A DNA stretch of 24,274 bases from a virus, in the IMG/VR virus record IMGVR_UViG_3300032117_000153, positions 1-24,274 of that record; one strand, given 5' to 3'. Numbering within the stretch: the first letter of the stretch is position 1; every line of letters starts with the position of its first letter. The position numbers were made by a program, and so were the translations under genes. Below are positions 3,061-10,102 of this stretch, piece by piece. Under the pieces are notes generated by a model, which ran no database searches, was not told the DNA's origin, and saw only the letters and a program-made list of their open reading frames with translations.

Positions 3061-3071
3061 GGTGTATGGAC
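3040..3071. repeat. Perfect 11-bp inverted repeat centred on the uvsX -10 box
   Basis: The arms GTCCATACACC (3040-3050) and GGTGTATGGAC (3061-3071) are perfectly complementary and flank the 10-bp spacer ATTTATAATA, which holds the -10 box. The 3' arm contains the uvsX start codon. As DNA it looks like an operator for a dimeric regulator. As RNA it would form a hairpin only if transcription began upstream of 3040. Confidence 0.75.
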
Positions 3072-4160
3072 AAAGACATAAACGAAATTTTAGGTGAGAT
3101 AGATAAGAGTAACCCATATGCATCGTTTTTGAACGATGGGGCTCTTTCAACAGTCGATGGTTGGATTGATACCGGATCAATGGTCTTAAATGGCATTGTA
3201 TCCGGTTCTTTATTTGGTGGTATTCCTAAAGGCAGATTAACAATGTTAGCTGGACCATCAATGACAGGTAAGTCTTTTATTGTTCAAAAGATTTTAGCAA
3301 ATGCTCAGAAAGAAGGTCTTATTCCTATTATATTTGATAGTGAGAATGCAATTGATAAAGACGGAGCAGCTGCATTAGGTTTAGATACTTCAAATGTAAA
3401 GTACGTGCCAACGTTTAGTATTGAAGAATGTCGTAATACAATCTTTAACTTCTTAACAAAAGCAAAAGAAAAAGGACAAACCGGTAAGTTTATTATTGCA
3501 ATTGACTCATTAGGTAATATGGAAAGTGAATTGCAATTAGGTAGAATGGAAAAGAGTTCTACAAGTGCAGATATGGGTAGTAGAGCAAAGGCAGTCAAGT
3601 CATTATTAAGAACTTGCACTCAATTAGCTGCAGTTACAAAGACAACTATAATAGTAACTAACCATATATTTGATGACCCGTCAGCAATGTTCCCATCATT
3701 AGTAAAAGATATGCCAGGTGGTAGAGCAGCAGTCTATTTACCATCAGTTACCTTGCAGTTAGCAAGAAAGCCAATGAAGGAAGATAAAGATTTAGATGAT
3801 AAGCTTGCAGTAGGACAGAAGAGTTACTCAGGTGTAGTGCTAAGAGCATTGACAGCTAAGAATAGATTCTGTAAGCAATACTTAGAAGGTGAAATGTACC
3901 TAAGTTTTGAAAATGGTCTTAACAAATACTATGGGTTATTAGAACTGGCAGTAGGGTTTGGCGTAATTGTTCAAACAGGTAGCACATATCAGATGCCAGA
4001 TGGTACTAAATTAGGATATTACTCAAAATGGAAGAGTGATTTTAAATTATGGGATGAGACTATTATACCAGGTATTGAAGAAAAAATTAAAGTTGAATGG
4101 AAGTATGGTAGTAATATTGGGAAAGATGATATAATTCCAGATGAGGTTGAGGTACAATGA
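3066..4160 (+). CDS. uvsX: UvsX, RecA-like recombinase
   Basis: Strand-exchange ATPase of the RecA/UvsX family. In T4 it drives recombination-dependent replication and double-strand break repair on gp32-coated ssDNA. The 364 residues compare with 391 in T4 UvsX. The Walker A motif is GPSMTGKS (63-70) and Walker B is FIIAIDSLGNM (Asp147). The segment DMGSRAKAVKSLLR, then VTNHIFDDP and a loop PGGRAAVY, match the UvsX-type DNA-binding loop region. The ATG at 3066 is chosen because the promoter -10 box ends 6 bases before it and the N-terminus fits UvsX. The gene is followed at 13 bases by queD. Start codon and -10 are embedded in a perfect inverted repeat, so expression is probably controlled at initiation. 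Confidence 0.95.
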   Translation: MDKDINEILGEIDKSNPYASFLNDGALSTVDGWIDTGSMVLNGIVSGSLFGGIPKGRLTMLAGPSMTGKSFIVQKILANAQKEGLIPIIFDSENAIDKDGAAALGLDTSNVKYVPTFSIEECRNTIFNFLTKAKEKGQTGKFIIAIDSLGNMESELQLGRMEKSSTSADMGSRAKAVKSLLRTCTQLAAVTKTTIIVTNHIFDDPSAMFPSLVKDMPGGRAAVYLPSVTLQLARKPMKEDKDLDDKLAVGQKSYSGVVLRALTAKNRFCKQYLEGEMYLSFENGLNKYYGLLELAVGFGVIVQTGSTYQMPDGTKLGYYSKWKSDFKLWDETIIPGIEEKIKVEWKYGSNIGKDDIIPDEVEVQ

Positions 4161-4172: not shown

Positions 4173-4595
4173 ATGAATAAGATAACAGCAACAAGATACC
4201 ACGATTTCTCTACAGGTCATCGTGTCTATGGCCATGAATCTAAGTGCGCACACTTACATGGTCATAATTATCGAATCTATTTAACAGTAGAGGCTGATCA
4301 GTTAGATACAGTTGGTAGAGTAATGGACTTTTCTGGTATTAAAGACAAGTTCGTTATATGGTTGGAGGTAAATTGGGACCATAAATTCCTAATTTGGGAA
4401 AAAGACCCGTTTGCTCCAACATTAAAAGAACTAGACCCAGAAGGTACGGTAGTTGTAAACTTCAATCCAACTGCAGAAAACATGGGCCAGTACTTAATTA
4501 ACGTAATTGGGCCACAACAGCTAGCTGGAACTAATGTAAAATTGGTTAAGGTTAATATTGAAGAGACACGTAAATGTAGTGTTGAAGTACAATAA
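4173..4595 (+). CDS. queD: QueD, 6-carboxytetrahydropterin synthase
   Basis: QueD/PTPS-family enzyme of the 7-deazaguanine pathway, converting dihydroneopterin triphosphate to 6-carboxy-5,6,7,8-tetrahydropterin. The 140-residue length is normal. The zinc ligands His16 (FSTGHR), His29 and His31 (HLHGHNY) are present, as are the catalytic Cys25, the Asp69-His70 pair (NWDHKFL), PTAEN (99-103) and the Glu of IEETRKC (130-131). It therefore looks active and is more likely QueD than a eukaryote-type PTPS. It sits 3 bases before queC, so the two are co-expressed. In phages these genes usually serve either 7-deazaguanine DNA modification or tRNA queuosine supply. QueE and FolE, needed for a complete preQ0 route, are not in this window and would come from elsewhere in the phage or from the host. 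Confidence 0.92.
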   Translation: MNKITATRYHDFSTGHRVYGHESKCAHLHGHNYRIYLTVEADQLDTVGRVMDFSGIKDKFVIWLEVNWDHKFLIWEKDPFAPTLKELDPEGTVVVNFNPTAENMGQYLINVIGPQQLAGTNVKLVKVNIEETRKCSVEVQ

Positions 4596-4598
4596 CAT

Positions 4599-5357
4599 AT
4601 GAGTCACAAATTAGTAATATCATTTAGCGGTGGAATGGATTCGTCAGTGCTATTGCATATGGCAGCTGATAAGGGTTATAGAGATATACATTTATTATCG
4701 TTTGATTATGGACAAAGACATAAGCGTGAACTTGAATGTATTAAGTTACAAACAGATAGTATAAAGAATAAGTACACAAAAGGTAAACCAGTTAACATTA
4801 CTACTAAGACCCTTAACGTAGGCTATATTAAATCAATAGCAACTAAGAGTTCTCTAACTAATACTGATATAGATAATCCTAAAATTAAAGAAATGGCAGG
4901 AGATGCACAACCTATATCATATGTACCGTTTAGGAATACCATGTTTTTATCAATTGCATGTGCTTATGCAGAGTCAAATGACTGTGATACAGTATGGTAT
5001 GGTGCTGCTCAAGCTGATTCCTTAGCTGGTTACTGGGATGGAAGTGAAGAATTCATACAGTCAGTTAACAACCTCGTATCACTTAATCGTAAATCTAAGA
5101 TAAAGATAGAGGCTCCACTTATTACTATGTCAAAGAAAGACATAGTTTTGGAGGGGGTTAGGTTGGGTGTACCGTTTGGACAGACTTGGACCTGTTATTC
5201 CAATAGAGAAGATGGTTTAGCAGATGCAGAAACACCATCAAGTAGTTTAAGATTACGTGGTTTTATTGAAGCAGGTTATAGAGACCCTATTCAATACGTA
5301 CAACAAACTAAGATAAACGATATTTACCTTAAGAATAAGTGTAAATTAGTACCCTAA
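4599..5357 (+). CDS. queC: QueC, 7-cyano-7-deazaguanine synthase, zinc site degenerate
   Basis: ATP-dependent preQ0 synthase of the PP-loop family, which converts 7-carboxy-7-deazaguanine and ammonia to 7-cyano-7-deazaguanine. The PP-loop is SFSGGMDSS (8-16), followed by FDYGQRHKRE and the VPFRNTMF segment, all typical of QueC. The C-terminal LRLRGFIEAG also matches. Oddly, the zinc cluster, normally C-x8/9-C-x2-C-x2-C just before that segment, keeps only the first cysteine (Cys199); the other three positions read Asp209, Thr212 and Ser215. Either metal binding was lost with fold retained, or the enzyme has changed its reaction. It follows queD at 3 bases without a Shine-Dalgarno. Its end overlaps the convergent gene at 5346 by 12 bases. 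Confidence 0.9.
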   Translation: MSHKLVISFSGGMDSSVLLHMAADKGYRDIHLLSFDYGQRHKRELECIKLQTDSIKNKYTKGKPVNITTKTLNVGYIKSIATKSSLTNTDIDNPKIKEMAGDAQPISYVPFRNTMFLSIACAYAESNDCDTVWYGAAQADSLAGYWDGSEEFIQSVNNLVSLNRKSKIKIEAPLITMSKKDIVLEGVRLGVPFGQTWTCYSNREDGLADAETPSSSLRLRGFIEAGYRDPIQYVQQTKINDIYLKNKCKLVP

Positions 5358-6563
5358 GTCGTTTCTACGCTGAATTTCAATCATTCTTCTACGTTTGTAC
5401 ATCATTTGATTGAACATTTCCCTTTGTTGAGCCTGTGATGATAATTTCGTCACAGGTTCTTCATTGTCTTCTTCATTACCTGAACCTGGAAATTTCATTG
5501 CTTTACCATCTGGTGGTACATTATTGATATCTTCTTCATTTGCTTCTTCAATACCTTCTTCAGCCATTAATTCATTAGCTAAAGCTTGTACTTTTTGAGA
5601 ATCTCCTGAAATACCTACTTTATAATAACAATTTAAATCAGAAGCAGCTAAATCACAAGAGTCTGACAAATATTCTAAATGAAGACCATGCTGTTTAGCC
5701 ATGTTTGCTATATCATGTATAGAATAAGGAAATACGCTGTTATCTATTTCTAATTTCACCATAGATTCTTCTGCATCTTCTTCTTCGTCTTCACGTTTTG
5801 CATTGATGCCACCCGTCTCTTCTGGATCAGGTTCATTCCAATCTTCACCTTCTTTAGCACCTTCATGTGGGTAGTCAGCAACTAATTTATGACGTTTATG
5901 TGAACCTAATTTTGACTCCCAATCTGGATCAGTTTGAGGACCTTCTACTGTAGTTTGACTGGTTGGATCTTCAACTTGTAAAGAAAGCACGTGTGCTTTT
6001 AAAATATCTCCAAGGGACATATCTTTACCTGTACCATTCTTTACTGTCACTCTAAAACGCAAACCGTTATGGTTAGCAGAATATACTGTATTACTACCTA
6101 CATCACCTTCATACTTGAAATGTGCGTTTGGATCAATATTTTTCTGTAAAGTATCTACTTGATCTTTACCTTTTTCAAATCTTTGTTTTGCTGGGGCACT
6201 TTTTTCTGCTTTTTGAGCATTAAATTTAATGTCTGGCTTCATTTGAAGCTTTCTTGACATATTAGCTGCAACATTCATCATGGATGTAATGTCTTCATCA
6301 GTAATGTTAGCAATAATGTCTTCAATCTTTTCACCTGGATGGTCTTTTTCAATCTGTCTTAATACTTTCGTTGCAAAGTACCTCGGAGTCATGGTACCTT
6401 TTAGTTCTTGCACACTTTTCATACCCATTAACTTTGCATAAGCAGGGTGTGCAGCACGTCCTCTCGTACCTTCGTTAACTAACTCTTTAAATTCTTCATT
6501 CCATAATGCAGTAGCATTAGGTTTAACGTTTTTTGCCCAACTAGACGTGAATAAGCTGTTCAT
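5346..6563 (-). CDS. Late-type, probably virion-associated protein of unknown function
   Basis: A 405-residue acidic protein that I do not recognise. The N-terminus (SLFTSSWAKNVKPNATALWNE) is amphipathic. The middle has Lys/Gln-rich helices, then a beta-type region near 150-200 (FKYEGDVGSNTVYSANHNG), a disordered acidic stretch (EDEEEDAEES), a possible second small domain and a basic C-terminus (MMYKRRRMIEIQRRNDLGY). It is alone on the minus strand among replication genes and is preceded by a T4-late-like box, AATAAATA, 8 bases before the ATG. By promoter type and strand it resembles the other minus-strand genes here (15889, 17807, 18717, 19123), at least one of which is a neck protein, so a structural or assembly role is inferred. 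It converges on queC with a 12-base overlap. Confidence 0.82.
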   Translation of the reverse strand: MNSLFTSSWAKNVKPNATALWNEEFKELVNEGTRGRAAHPAYAKLMGMKSVQELKGTMTPRYFATKVLRQIEKDHPGEKIEDIIANITDEDITSMMNVAANMSRKLQMKPDIKFNAQKAEKSAPAKQRFEKGKDQVDTLQKNIDPNAHFKYEGDVGSNTVYSANHNGLRFRVTVKNGTGKDMSLGDILKAHVLSLQVEDPTSQTTVEGPQTDPDWESKLGSHKRHKLVADYPHEGAKEGEDWNEPDPEETGGINAKREDEEEDAEESMVKLEIDNSVFPYSIHDIANMAKQHGLHLEYLSDSCDLAASDLNCYYKVGISGDSQKVQALANELMAEEGIEEANEEDINNVPPDGKAMKFPGSGNEEDNEEPVTKLSSQAQQREMFNQMMYKRRRMIEIQRRNDLGY

Positions 6564-6571
6564 TATAGTAT

Positions 6572-6579
6572 TATTTATT
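6572..6579 (-). promoter_or_regulatory. T4-late-like promoter box for the 5346-6563 gene
   Basis: On the minus strand the sequence reads AATAAATA, one mismatch from the T4 late consensus TATAAATA, followed by ATACTATA and the ATG. It overlaps the -35 hexamer (6578-6583) of the divergent amidotransferase promoter. Confidence 0.5.
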
Positions 6580-6606
6580 GATTTTTGGTTATTTTACTTT
6601 ATAATA
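6574..6606 (+). promoter_or_regulatory. sigma70-like promoter of the amidotransferase cassette
   Basis: TTGATT (6578-6583), 16 bp, TATAAT (6600-6605). The extended block TTTATTGATTT-N13-TTTATAATA is identical to that of uvsX. The -10 ends 9 bases before the ATG at 6615, predicting a leader of about 3 bases. Confidence 0.65.
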
Positions 6607-6614
6607 TAGTTACG

Positions 6615-7280
6615 ATGTGTGGGATTTATGGAGCCATAAGTGCTAGTAAGTTTGAAATACTAGATCAAGCTAACAAAGTTAGAGGTAACTTTGCTTCTGG
6701 TATCTTTTACTATAGTGGTAAAGAATACGACTATCAAAAGACTGAAGGGTCATTTGATTGGGATGAGATTAAGCTACCAAAGAAAGGCTTTGTATTTTTA
6801 GGCCACAATCAAGCACCTACATCTAGTGAAAGAAAGTGGAAAGAACATAATAGCCATCCTTTTGTGTGTGATAATTGGATAGTTGCACATAATGGCGTGT
6901 TAACTAACTTTAATCAACTAAAAAAAGACTATATTCCAGACCATCCTAACTTAGTGGATAGCAGCATTATACCAGCTTTACTATCACACTTTGAGAAAAC
7001 GTTTGATAGTGCTAACACTACTGAGAAAGAAGCTAATTTAATTGCATATGTGTTAGAACTTCTAGAAGGAACATTTGGATTATGGATAGTGAACACAAAT
7101 ACAATGAACATTTACTTAGCAAGACAAGGTAGCACATTATTCTTTGATAAGAATAGCTTTTCTTCAGCTAAAGGTAAAGGCTATAAGGAATTAAAAGAAG
7201 GTGTTGTGTACAAGTATAATAAAAGAGGTATAAAACCAGTAGAAAAGTTTAAAGTTAACTCCCCATTTTTAGAATTATGA
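6615..7280 (+). CDS. Class II (Ntn) glutamine amidotransferase
   Basis: Stand-alone glutaminase of the class II amidotransferase family, which releases ammonia from glutamine for a partner synthase. The start is set at 6615 rather than an upstream ATG at 6585, because Cys2 must follow the initiator Met to become the N-terminal nucleophile (MCGIYGAIS) and because the promoter lies between the two ATGs. Other motifs: RGNFASG (23-29), LGHNQAPTS (62-70, with Asn-Gln where many members have Thr-Arg), NSHPF (79-83), the oxyanion pair Asn93-Gly94 in AHNGVLTN, and Asp115. At 221 residues there is no room for a synthase domain, so the partner must be separate. Nearby queC is an obvious candidate, because archaeal Gat-QueC fuses these two domains; this pairing is inference. 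The gene overlaps the next by 4 bases (ATGA). Confidence 0.9.
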   Translation: MCGIYGAISASKFEILDQANKVRGNFASGIFYYSGKEYDYQKTEGSFDWDEIKLPKKGFVFLGHNQAPTSSERKWKEHNSHPFVCDNWIVAHNGVLTNFNQLKKDYIPDHPNLVDSSIIPALLSHFEKTFDSANTTEKEANLIAYVLELLEGTFGLWIVNTNTMNIYLARQGSTLFFDKNSFSSAKGKGYKELKEGVVYKYNKRGIKPVEKFKVNSPFLEL

Positions 7281-7753
7281 TAAAATATTTACAACCAACG
7301 ACAGTTGAAGAAAAAATGAAACTAATGGAGTTTGTATACAAAAATACAGACTCGTTTATATTGAATACGTTTGGGTATTTGTGGGAGAGTAGATTATGGT
7401 GGTGTATGCAACCAATACAAGTTTATATGCAAGGCAAGGAAATTATTGGGCTACATGCATTTTCAATTAATACAAAAGCTCCAGGTACTTTAAAAACATA
7501 TTATATTGTTACATCAAAGAATCACAGAAAGCAAGGCATTGCTAAAAAGCTTACAATAAAAGCATTAAAAGATTACAAAGATAAATGTGATAACTATTTT
7601 GTAAACTCAGAAGAAAATAGTGACGGTGTACATTTTTATAAAAAATTATTTGATTACCAATTTACAATTCATAAAAATGAGTTTGGTACAAATGATTTAA
7701 ACTTTGAACAGTCAATTGAAAGTATTTTAAAAAATGCAAAACAGAAAATTTGA
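7277..7753 (+). CDS. GNAT-family N-acetyltransferase
   Basis: A 158-residue GNAT-fold protein, a family that transfers an acyl group from acyl-CoA to an amine. The acetyl-CoA binding motif A is visible as YYIVTSKNHRKQGIAKKL (R/Q-x-x-G-x-A type) and motif B as DGVHFYKKLFDYQF, in the usual order. The substrate cannot be read. It starts inside the amidotransferase stop (ATGA, 4-base overlap) and its end overlaps the next gene by 20 bases, so it is a coupled member of the cassette. GNAT-fold enzymes can modify DNA bases (phage Mu Mom is one), tRNA or proteins. Given the deazaguanine and nucleotide neighbours, a base or nucleotide amine is a reasonable but unproven substrate. Confidence 0.82.
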   Translation: MIKYLQPTTVEEKMKLMEFVYKNTDSFILNTFGYLWESRLWWCMQPIQVYMQGKEIIGLHAFSINTKAPGTLKTYYIVTSKNHRKQGIAKKLTIKALKDYKDKCDNYFVNSEENSDGVHFYKKLFDYQFTIHKNEFGTNDLNFEQSIESILKNAKQKI

Positions 7754-8051
7754 TACAGGAGCTCAAAGAGACGCTGATGTTGGTAAACCAAGAATGAGTT
7801 TAATACCAACAGAAGAATTTGTACGTTTAATGCAACATTACCGTAAGGGAGGTGAGAAGTACGGGTTTGACAATTGGAAGCACGGTATGAAATCTTCTGT
7901 TTTCTATGACAGTGCTCAAAGACATTTAATGAAATGGTGGGTGGGAGAAACAGATGAAGACCATTTAGCTGCAGTACTGTGGAATGTAATGGGTGCTATG
8001 TGGACAGAAAAAAATAAACCTGAATTAGACGATAGAAAAGAATTTAAATGA
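7734..8051 (+). CDS. MazZ-like dATP/dGTP diphosphohydrolase domain (DUF5664 type)
   Basis: A 105-residue protein matching the pattern of the small phage domain once called DUF5664, later linked to dATP/dGTP pyrophosphohydrolase (MazZ) of the all-alpha NTP pyrophosphatase group. The start RKFDTGAQRDADVGKPRMSLIP, then GGEKYGFDNWKHG, AQRHLMKWWVGETDEDHLAAV and LWNVMGAMW are all typical. In phages with 2-aminoadenine DNA, MazZ lowers dATP and yields dGMP for PurZ; no PurZ is in this window. Here it may trim dNTP pools for a modified base or simply sanitise them. The ATG at 7734 lies inside the GNAT gene (20-base overlap), and the stop overlaps the next start (ATGA). The family call is from memory of the motif pattern. 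Confidence 0.75.
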   Translation: MQNRKFDTGAQRDADVGKPRMSLIPTEEFVRLMQHYRKGGEKYGFDNWKHGMKSSVFYDSAQRHLMKWWVGETDEDHLAAVLWNVMGAMWTEKNKPELDDRKEFK

Positions 8052-8743
8052 ACATGACATACAAAATTATTGTAGCATCACAAAAAGAAAAGTTAGAACA
8101 AACTTTAATCTATAAATCATTAGCAGCTCACTGTATCACTACTAATAATGTAATATTTTTTGGTAATAATAAACATTCATTAGCTGAGATATATAATGAA
8201 GGTATTGACATATGTAATGCTACCGGTACTAAGTTAGCAGTATTTGTCCATGATGACGTTTACATTAATTGCAGTGACTTTGAAAGACGTATTCGCCACT
8301 ATGCAGAAATGTTTGACGTGTATGGGTTAGCTGGTAATTCAGCAGTTACAATTAAAGAGCCAGTACTGTGGCATTTAATGTCTGATCGTGAAAATTTAAG
8401 AGGCTGCGTAGCTCACGGACTAGATGAATCTCAATATGCTTACACATCATTTGGTCAATTACCAAGTAAGGTAGTAATGTTTGATGGTGTGTTTATGGGG
8501 GTTAATTTGGAAAAACTTCCCGGTACGGTCAGATTTGACGAAAAGAACCCAGCAAAGTTTCACTTTTACGATTTAATGTTTTCATTAGATTGTAGCCTCA
8601 GCAGACTTAAAGTAGGCATTGGTGATGTTCCTATTATTCATAACTCACCTGGTTTACGTAGCATGAGTAAGGAATGGAAGCAAGGACAACAATACTTTTT
8701 AGAAAAGTATAACAAATACGCAAATAAGACGTTGACTGTTTAA
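8048..8743 (+). CDS. Glycosyltransferase family 2-like protein
   Basis: A 231-residue protein resembling the compact GT2-like glycosyltransferases (Glyco_tranf_2_5 type). Evidence is the nucleotide-sugar fold pattern: an N-terminal beta strand (YKIIVASQKE), SLAEIYNEGID, then TKLAVFVHDDVYI, whose HDDV fills the DxD-like metal site, followed by VMFDGVFMGVN and a late FHFYDLMFSLDCSLSRLKVGIGDVPIIHNS. No membrane segments are seen. The acceptor is unknown: it could be modified DNA, a virion protein or a host glycan. It is the last gene of the coupled cassette, overlapping the previous stop by 4 bases; ATG at 8054 is an alternative start. The -35 of the helicase promoter lies within its last codons. 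Confidence 0.68.
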   Translation: MNMTYKIIVASQKEKLEQTLIYKSLAAHCITTNNVIFFGNNKHSLAEIYNEGIDICNATGTKLAVFVHDDVYINCSDFERRIRHYAEMFDVYGLAGNSAVTIKEPVLWHLMSDRENLRGCVAHGLDESQYAYTSFGQLPSKVVMFDGVFMGVNLEKLPGTVRFDEKNPAKFHFYDLMFSLDCSLSRLKVGIGDVPIIHNSPGLRSMSKEWKQGQQYFLEKYNKYANKTLTV

Positions 8744-8770: not shown

Positions 8771-10102
8771 ATGGAATTAAAACTCAATTTAGATGAGTTC
8801 GAGAATATACTTGTGTATAAGTCTCTTACGGACGAAAGGTATCTAGCTAACATAGTAGATCATGTTAAGCCTGAATTTTTCAAAGATAAAAACGTAAGAA
8901 CTATATTCAGTACAATAAAAGCATTTTATTTAAAAACTAATAATGTACCAACTATTACAGAATTAAAAACTTACATTAACACTGAAGATGTAAAGGAGGC
9001 TTTTAAAACTGTTATTCGTAATTTTACTAATATAGATAAAAACTTTAATGAAGATCAGTTAATAGAAAATACTGAAAGGTATATTAAAGAAAAGGCAATC
9101 TATAATACGATGTTAGATGTTGCTGAAGATGTATCATCTGGTAAAATAGATACAAGTTTTATTTTAGATAAATTTGAAAAGAGTTGTAATATTAATTTAA
9201 AGACTGATATTGGTTTAGATTTGTTTAATGACTTTGGTAAGGTTATAGAAGACCTTAATACTGAGCAACCTACTATACCAAGTAGATGGAAGTGGCTAGA
9301 TAATAAACTTGACGGTGGGTTTTTACAAAAAGGTAGAGCGTTGTATATTTTTGCAGGTGAAACTAATGTTGGTAAGTCCATATTTTTAGGTAACATAGCT
9401 TCAAATATTGCAAGTCAGAATAAGACAGTATTACTCATAACGTTAGAAATGAGTGAGTTAATTTACGCAAAACGTTTATCGTCTAATATAACTAAAATAC
9501 CTATTAGAGATTTAAAAACTGAAAGCGTTACATTAAAACAGCAAATTGAAGAGATTAGTAAAAATAGTCCTGGTTGTAGAATATTAATTAAAGAGTTTCC
9601 TCCTAGTACTATTACACCAAGTCAAATTCAAGGGTTTATTAAAAATTTAGTTAATAAAGGTATTAAAATTGATGCTGTTGTATTAGATTATATTAATTTG
9701 GTTAAGAGTACTTTAGGTAATAATAGTTATGAAAGGGTAAAATATGCAACTGAACAAGTAAGAGCTCTTACATATGTGTTTAATTGCCCTTTTATTACAG
9801 CAACCCAGTTAAATAGAAGTGGCTATAATACTAATAGCCCTGGATTAGAAACTATTGGTGAAAGTATTGGTTTAGCTGCAACAGCAGACGTTATTGTTAG
9901 TATCTTCCAAGACGAAGAAGATAAAGAATTAGGTGTAGTTAAGTTAGGTATGATGAAAAACAGGTTTGGTTTAAATCATGGCGTAACTACAATGAGATTA
10001 GACTATAATACATTAACGGTATCGGAAGATGACTCATTATCTACGTTAGGAGATCAGTCAAGTATAACAAATACGTTAGCAATGCTTAGTAATAAAAGTT
10101 GA
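8771..10102 (+). CDS. 41: Replicative DNA helicase, DnaB-like (T4 gp41-like)
   Basis: Hexameric 5'-3' replicative helicase of the DnaB/gp41 family. The 443 residues compare with 475 for T4 gp41. An N-terminal helical domain (1-150) precedes the RecA-like ATPase domain. Walker A is GETNVGKS (196-203), then LITLEMSE (H1a), Walker B AVVLDYINL (Asp306), the ATQLNRSG sensor motif, a GLAATADVIVSI segment and KNRFG (396-400) with the probable arginine finger Arg398. All key motifs are present. The ATG at 8771 is fixed by the near-consensus promoter just upstream; AGGT 6-7 bases before the ATG could also serve as a weak Shine-Dalgarno. It would work with the primase encoded at 14855 and perhaps a loader at 10456. 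Confidence 0.95.
   Translation: MELKLNLDEFENILVYKSLTDERYLANIVDHVKPEFFKDKNVRTIFSTIKAFYLKTNNVPTITELKTYINTEDVKEAFKTVIRNFTNIDKNFNEDQLIENTERYIKEKAIYNTMLDVAEDVSSGKIDTSFILDKFEKSCNINLKTDIGLDLFNDFGKVIEDLNTEQPTIPSRWKWLDNKLDGGFLQKGRALYIFAGETNVGKSIFLGNIASNIASQNKTVLLITLEMSELIYAKRLSSNITKIPIRDLKTESVTLKQQIEEISKNSPGCRILIKEFPPSTITPSQIQGFIKNLVNKGIKIDAVVLDYINLVKSTLGNNSYERVKYATEQVRALTYVFNCPFITATQLNRSGYNTNSPGLETIGESIGLAATADVIVSIFQDEEDKELGVVKLGMMKNRFGLNHGVTTMRLDYNTLTVSEDDSLSTLGDQSSITNTLAMLSNKS

Follow-up and report, generated by a model that had tools for sequence, protein, structure and literature searches.

Modification of phage DNA with 7-deazaguanines is already known (PMC6884629). In the Enterobacteria phage 9g (Nonagvirus), preQ0 genes are combined with a DpdA inserter of the phrog_887 type and a glutamine amidotransferase (GAT) function that is fused to QueC, and the product is archaeosine; no QueF gene is annotated in the stretch of 9g that was examined. 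The Vibrio phage 6E351A, by contrast, encodes FolE, QueD, QueE, QueC, QueF and DpdA, and 15% of its dG was found by mass spectrometry to be dPreQ1 (PMC12028318). Its relatives VH7D and nt-1 possess a GAT-like gene directly 3' of queC, and the dG+ of nt-1 has been attributed to ArcS (PMC6884629). The genes queC, queD and queE are also among the commonest 'auxiliary metabolic genes' of marine viromes (e.g. PMC9301287), where they are rarely tied to a product. Here, we analyze a queC locus in IMGVR_UViG_3300032117_000153, a 24,274-base fragment record of an uncultured phage (the whole of which is referred to as the window), and link it to a testable DNA-modification pathway in a widespread uncultured lineage. 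This pathway, which we consider likely, is encoded by the phage in two separate islands and would convert guanine in the phage DNA to a preQ1-type 7-deazaguanine that is then decorated further.

The locus in the window comprises the following genes and conserved borders:

3066 to 4160, plus strand: UvsX/RecA-like recombinase, the conserved upstream border
4173 to 4595, plus strand: queD, a 6-carboxytetrahydropterin synthase homolog of 140 amino acids (PTPS 9e-25, phrog_2389 8e-49)
4599 to 5357, plus strand: queC, a 7-cyano-7-deazaguanine synthase of 252 amino acids, a variant lacking the zinc motif (PF06508 4e-53, at the TIGR00364 cut-off)
5346 to 6563, minus strand: gene for a 405-amino-acid protein, optional in relatives (no family match above noise)
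6615 to 7280, plus strand: stand-alone class II GAT of 221 amino acids, part of the cassette core (GATase_6 2.7e-6, GlmS-like N-domain 3.9e-14)
7277 to 7753, plus strand: GNAT acyltransferase of 158 amino acids (PF00583 7e-8)
7734 to 8051, plus strand: MazZ-like dATP/dGTP diphosphohydrolase of 105 amino acids, accessory (PF18909 8e-23)
8048 to 8743, plus strand: GT-A fold glycosyltransferase (GT) of 231 amino acids, part of the cassette core (Glyco_tranf_2_5 PF13712 2.7e-11)
8771 to 10102, plus strand: gp41/DnaB-like replicative helicase, the conserved downstream border

The two border genes were taken from the gene-order map and named from sequence in their T4-like context. Family calls relied on Pfam, PHROG and TIGR profile matches, and structures were predicted with AlphaFold and compared with Foldseek. 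A preliminary description of this stretch had assigned the six genes from queD to GT to the same families, and its coordinates hold for all of them except for the start of GAT; the overlaps that it gave for GAT/GNAT, GNAT/MazZ and MazZ/GT (4, 20 and 4 bases) are correct to the base. GAT probably begins at ATG 6615 (Met-Cys) instead of TTG 6585, because the Cys2 nucleophile is present in 63 of 63 relatives and the equivalent site reads ATT-TGT in four relatives (L007:81, L010:1697, L023:4816 and L024:9167; labels with L or G denote sequences compared in this work), each downstream of an AAGGAG-like Shine-Dalgarno-like stretch. The minus-strand gene, which keeps queC and GAT apart, is fairly conserved among close relatives and missing from many others.

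Relatives were collected from viral contigs in scans that used either single proteins or alignments of GT, GAT and QueC; the alignment scans gave 307 to 590 confirmed relatives each, and the top 80 from each scan were retained. When the window genes were mapped onto these contigs, a single, fixed gene order emerged: UvsX, queC, GAT, GT and gp41 helicase. Among contigs with enough flanking sequence, queC had GAT and GT downstream in 78 of 78 cases, GAT was accompanied by both queC and GT in 48 of 48, and GT by both queC and GAT in 55 of 58, the exceptions being both GT copies of L080 and the one from a Flavobacterium contig. Two far more distant contigs (L019 and L020) show the order queC-GT-GAT, with the three genes still adjacent. 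The first of these counts is not circular, since most of the 78 cases stem from sets that were each selected for similarity to a single gene, and the linkage is informative despite the shared descent of the contigs because it persists while GT identity drops to approximately 35-40%. The association of queC, GAT and GT is not due to chance. Other members of the locus come and go: the interval between GAT and GT is empty in 79 cases and contains GNAT and MazZ in 20, MazZ in 13 and GNAT in 11, and queD occupies its position in the cassette only in the window phage and the near-identical contigs L001, L002, L003 and L026, while in the large relatives it sits in a distant queE locus. Because GNAT and MazZ are optional and queD is local, we regard queC, GAT and GT as the core of the cassette and the six genes, previously treated as a single unit, as one local version of it. 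The expected conservation together with queC was borne out, as the cassette always travels with this gene; the reverse pattern, a cassette residing mostly in phages without que genes, was looked for and is not what we found. As a side observation, GT is present twice between UvsX and gp41 in the lineage of L080 and L081, with no queC or GAT within the available stretch. Searches with GT returned no match in cultured phages and a single, distant Flavobacterium contig in bacterial genomes.

The QueC protein of the window differs from its canonical counterparts in its metal site. Compared with E. coli QueC, it retains the SGGMDS, YGQRHxxE and VPxRN motifs, the CY of the zinc region and the Tyr of the E. 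coli YPDC motif, which reads YWDG. It has equivalents of Y35, R99, Y131 and Y189, whose replacement by alanine in E. coli QueC abolishes queuosine formation in tRNA (PMC13329287). The canonical zinc motif C(x)8CxxCxxC, however, reads CYSNREDGLADAETPSS in the window, with the last three of the four zinc-binding Cys residues replaced. This motif is lost in 37 of 39 non-redundant relatives and kept only in L019 and L140, while the QueC and Gat-QueC proteins of cultured phages that we compared have it in all cases except immuto. In a QueC tree, the proteins without the motif form a single branch (100/97), which argues for one loss that has long been maintained. Judged from its residues, the window protein thus appears to be QueC-like in its chemistry, but it is not a canonical zinc QueC. 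An enzyme with the catalytic residues and without the zinc ligands would reveal whether the metal is needed at all. The QueC of a further record, L323 (CAKLQF020000007.1, 'Acinetobacter phage MD-2021a'), is probably a host gene, because the record resembles a bacterial chromosome (cysA, dapD, peroxiredoxin).

The position of QueC in the tree bears directly on the nature of the product. The preliminary description had drawn an analogy to archaeosine formation by Gat-QueC, and a GAT does accompany QueC in the window, just as the fused Gat-QueC of phage 9g makes dG+ together with DpdA (PMC6884629). QueC and GAT could therefore represent a split Gat-QueC that produces G+ (or ADG) for insertion by DpdA, followed by the addition of a sugar. 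We consider this unlikely. The two proteins are encoded by separate genes, and the branch of motif-less QueC proteins is nested with L140, L019 and the KVP40-type Vibrio QueC (99/98), separate from Gat-QueC, whose YGCRAETNE and YPDN motifs contrast with the YGQRHxxE and YWDG of the window. The GAT profile of the clade likewise favors the stand-alone Vibrio proteins, scoring 89 bits for the GAT of Vibrio phage 2.275, 57 for that of nt-1, 52 for GlmS and 42-48 for fused Gat domains; this affinity is judged by profile scores only, as a GAT tree has long branches and leaves the deep ones unresolved. Moreover, QueF belongs to the core gene set of the relatives (see below), and Vibrio phages that combine the same type of QueC and GAT with QueF make dPreQ1. 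Given the grouping of QueC with the KVP40 type and the QueF core, preQ1 rather than archaeosine chemistry is to be expected.

In relatives, genes for the remaining steps of base synthesis lie elsewhere in the genome. Pathway enzymes were searched for in 23 contigs of at least 80 kb, including six of at least 170 kb. QueE was found in 16 of the 23 and QueD in 17 of the 23, both being present in all six of the largest contigs, and FolE was found in 13 of the 23. The three of the largest contigs that lack FolE (G001, G002 and G006) contain a FolE2-type gene in the same neighborhood (PF02649 2e-72 for the G006 copy), so that each of the six has either FolE or FolE2. The preQ0 gene set is thus present in the relatives. 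QueF was detected in 11 contigs of the clade, among them every one of the six largest (PF14819 5e-34, PF14489 5e-21). In four relatives, it has kept the ESKSIKLY motif, the catalytic Cys region LLKSNCRVTSQPDWGD and the context of the Asp residue. We take the ESKSIKLY motif and the catalytic Cys region to mark a nitrile reductase rather than an archaeal amidinotransferase, so that these proteins are predicted to reduce preQ0 to preQ1. The contig nearest to the window with both islands among those tested is G023, whose QueC, GAT and GT are approximately 70%, 69% and 53% identical to those of the window. In the large relatives L246-L255, the queE locus continues beyond QueE with another P-loop kinase of the AAA_28 type and a number of glycosyltransferases (GT2, a GT7C+GT10 fusion and a GT-D-like protein), and the pathway may include further sugar chemistry.

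The inserting enzyme was less readily identified. The known models phrog_887 (9g type), PF01702 and phrog_10773 (DpdA2 of nt-1) matched nothing in the relatives, although positive controls worked for phrog_887 and phrog_10773. A candidate emerged when the 62 families common to four whole relatives were listed and one of them was folded. It is a protein of 268 amino acids that belongs to phrog_19058 ('unknown function') and is encoded beside QueF. Its AlphaFold model (13 sequences in the alignment, pLDDT 88.5) was compared with the PDB using Foldseek, and all 50 matches listed are tRNA-guanine transglycosylases (TGTs; probability 1.00, E from 5e-9, 11-14% identity); a PDB sequence search with its profile returned nothing. 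Profile comparison aligned it with phage DpdA (E 3.5e-4), pairing LLDNSIFELG with FLDSGAFSAYTLG, HHLLGCS with VHGFGIT and SCDTSNP with SCDSSSW. A His residue at position 196 has been named for DpdA (PMC6884629), and the alignment of HHLLGCS with VHGFGIT suggests that, unlike in DpdA2, its equivalent is present, as the His of PHHLLG. The gene and QueF have an identical distribution, each being present in the same 11 contigs of the clade. In most of these, it forms an operon with a P-loop kinase gene and queF, the genes overlapping or adjoining one another; in G004 and G006, it lies several kilobases away from the kinase and QueF. We conclude that the phrog_19058 protein is probably an unrecognized member of the DpdA/TGT family, which would give this family a likely role as a base-inserting enzyme. 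The enzymes that the preliminary description had noted as missing and supposed could lie elsewhere (FolE or FolE2, QueE and a DpdA-type protein) are thus present in the genomes of the relatives, the last of them as a protein with a predicted TGT fold that occurs in all six contigs of at least 170 kb and escapes the established DpdA and TGT models.

Two candidates were not retained as members of the pathway. A gene for a 441-amino-acid protein, located between folE and queD, was set aside as a DpdA2 candidate for want of a family match, and an IMP dehydrogenase/GMP reductase-like core gene was left out because it is not consistently found in the island. The latter (L282:107-1072, with orthologs in G001, G002 and G006) belongs to the core of the four whole relatives and, in several relatives, is located within the island of the DpdA-like gene. 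The DpdA-like gene also appears to begin at ATT in L316 (3654), L318 (1928) and L319 (3262); non-AUG starts may be frequent in this lineage, concealing genes from annotation.

The fold of this protein raises the question of its substrate. As preQ1 is the normal substrate of TGT enzymes, the pathway could supply preQ1 or queuosine to host or phage tRNA. This appears improbable, given that QueA was not found in 11 relatives, so that the full queuosine route is absent, that the DpdA-like protein is much shorter than E. coli Tgt (375 amino acids) and closer in its profile to phage DpdA than to Tgt (E 0.03), and that the cassette is flanked by genes for recombination and replication. Type IV CBASS (Cap9/Cap10) and QatC also make use of QueC and TGT folds that have been repurposed. 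Cap9 is a relative of QueC, and Cap10 is a TGT-family enzyme (PMC11996544); it is conceivable that QueC and the TGT-like protein similarly modify a protein, here in counter-defense. We regard this as highly unlikely, because the window QueC has the canonical signature of preQ0 synthesis, the core includes QueF, which acts on preQ0, and FolE, QueD and QueE produce the free base, whereas the CBASS and QatC systems differ from ours in these canonical residues and the full base synthesis. Insertion of the base into DNA by the DpdA-like protein thus remains the reading that we favor.

The two islands are further connected by an acyltransferase slot. In many relatives, a formyltransferase gene lies directly or closely 3' of the DpdA-like gene (PF00551 5e-15, 2e-9 and 1.5e-7 in the three tested); in G005, a GNAT gene is found instead. 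G001, G002, G013 and G023 have GNAT in the queC cassette and neither a formyltransferase nor a GNAT in the DpdA-like island, while the other seven contigs with two islands have no GNAT in the cassette and either a formyltransferase (six) or a GNAT (one) in the island. This exclusivity holds in 11 of 11 contigs with both islands and, in four whole genomes, genome-wide for these families (exact p = 1/330 or 0.003, and 1/120 or 0.008 with the near-duplicates G002 and G013 merged, kinship being ignored in both cases). The simplest reading is that the two enzymes play equivalent roles, acylating the aminomethyl nitrogen of preQ1, and the exclusivity suggests that the GNAT of the window probably does so as well. 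N-formyl-preQ1 is said to have been found in phage DNA by Cui et al. in 2023, which would embody the same chemical principle, acylation of the preQ1 amine; we know of no GNAT version of this reaction. The pathway is thus predicted to contain one slot that GNAT enzymes occupy in some phages and formyltransferases in others.

MazZ homologs, which occur in either island, are a further indication that both belong to one system. In L316, such a gene lies in the DpdA-like/queF island (PF18909 9e-21; 7e-39 against the window protein), and L318-L320 also have one in the DpdA-like island. Together with the P-loop kinases that accompany the queE locus as well as the DpdA-like/queF island, the MazZ genes in the queC cassette and the DpdA-like island are compatible with a route through the nucleotide pool, in which kinases would turn the base into a dNTP and MazZ would deplete dGTP, as in Z-genome phages; Campylobacter phages, indeed, are fully dADG-modified without DpdA (PMC6884629). 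Such a route seems very unlikely to us, since a TGT-like enzyme is part of the core, MazZ is optional and no PurZ-type enzyme (PF00709) was found in 11 relatives, a result that also speaks against Z-genome (diaminopurine) chemistry, PurZ being one of the enzymes that the preliminary description had proposed to search for.

Collectively, these observations are best accommodated by a transglycosylation pathway. GTP would be converted to preQ0 by FolE or FolE2, QueD, QueE and QueC, with GAT supplying ammonia to the zinc-motif-less QueC, and QueF would then reduce preQ0 to preQ1. The DpdA/TGT-like protein would exchange guanine in DNA for the modified base, whose aminomethyl nitrogen may be acylated by GNAT (in the window phage and some relatives) or by the formyltransferase (in other relatives). 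The order of these steps is tentative. The GT-A enzyme may attach a sugar to the base or to the attached group. Its AlphaFold model has a GT-A fold (pLDDT 96.7) closest to the UDP-binding structures 2nxv/2qgi (Foldseek E 1.5e-11), and an HDD motif is invariant among 47 homologs; glycosylation is nevertheless the weakest link of the proposed pathway, being deduced from gene linkage only. The MazZ-like enzyme, where present, could trim dGTP/dATP, and the decorated base may hide the phage DNA from bacterial defenses. An experimental anchor for this scheme is provided, by analogy, by phage 6E351A.

Several points weigh against this scheme. The modified base is a prediction from genes, and DNA, rather than tRNA or a protein, is the presumed substrate of the modeled DpdA-like enzyme. 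As the window genome is a fragment, its second island, with QueE, FolE, QueF and the DpdA-like gene outside the window, is extrapolated from relatives. The loss of the zinc motif could signal a changed function of QueC. In GAT, the Cys, Asn-Gly and Asp residues are invariant (63 of 63), but the position of the usual Arg, which holds the glutamine carboxylate in GlmS/PurF-type enzymes, is occupied by Gln in 61 of 63 members, rendering its glutaminase activity uncertain; the GATs of VH7D and nt-1 also read HVQAPT. GT is present in L080 and the Flavobacterium contig with neither queC nor GAT nearby, and the exclusivity of the acyltransferases rests on approximately 10 independent contigs with shared phylogeny.

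The described systems closest to this one include that of the KVP40-like phages (Schizotequatrovirus/nt-1). These phages are T4-like, encode FolE, QueD, QueE, QueC, QueF (VH7D) and a TGT-like inserter, and have a YWDx-type QueC followed by a stand-alone GAT-like gene. In contrast to the clade of the window, their QueC retains the zinc-binding Cys residues, their genes largely form one cluster, and their inserter is DpdA2 (phrog_10773); GT has no match there, and no GNAT or formyltransferase was noted. Their GAT-like gene (phrog_12378, 'unknown function') overlaps queC (L232:9076-9684, VH7D gp015; L257:10099-10707, nt-1 ORF392), and a search of a Vibrio phage paper turned up no reference to it. 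The system of the window clade thus differs from known 7-deazaguanine systems in an inserter outside the DpdA models, a QueC that has lost its zinc motif, a GT consistently linked to queC and GAT, and an exchangeable acyltransferase slot. A limited literature search yielded no description of this gene set, which does not prove its absence. It is tempting to speculate, although we hold this only as a possibility, that the product is an undescribed base, a preQ1 acylated by interchangeable GNAT or formyltransferase enzymes and glycosylated, made with a zinc-independent QueC and a new DpdA subfamily. New DNA-modifying enzymes would also be useful tools.

The phage of the window is T4-like, as indicated by its genes for a DNA polymerase, UvsX-like recombinase, replicative helicase, clamp, primase, large terminase and tail sheath, those outside the locus having also been named from sequence. 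Its large terminase shares at most approximately 38% identity with the best-listed phages of a cultured collection, so that within the reach of our tools the lineage has no cultured member. PADLOC recognized nothing in the system of the window except a generic QueC, and a tRNA scan of the window found none. Finally, several PHROG labels appear to be incorrect or absent: phrog_5949 ('GTP cyclohydrolase') corresponds to QueF, phrog_10428 ('GlmS') to Gat-QueC and phrog_19058 ('unknown') to the TGT-like protein.

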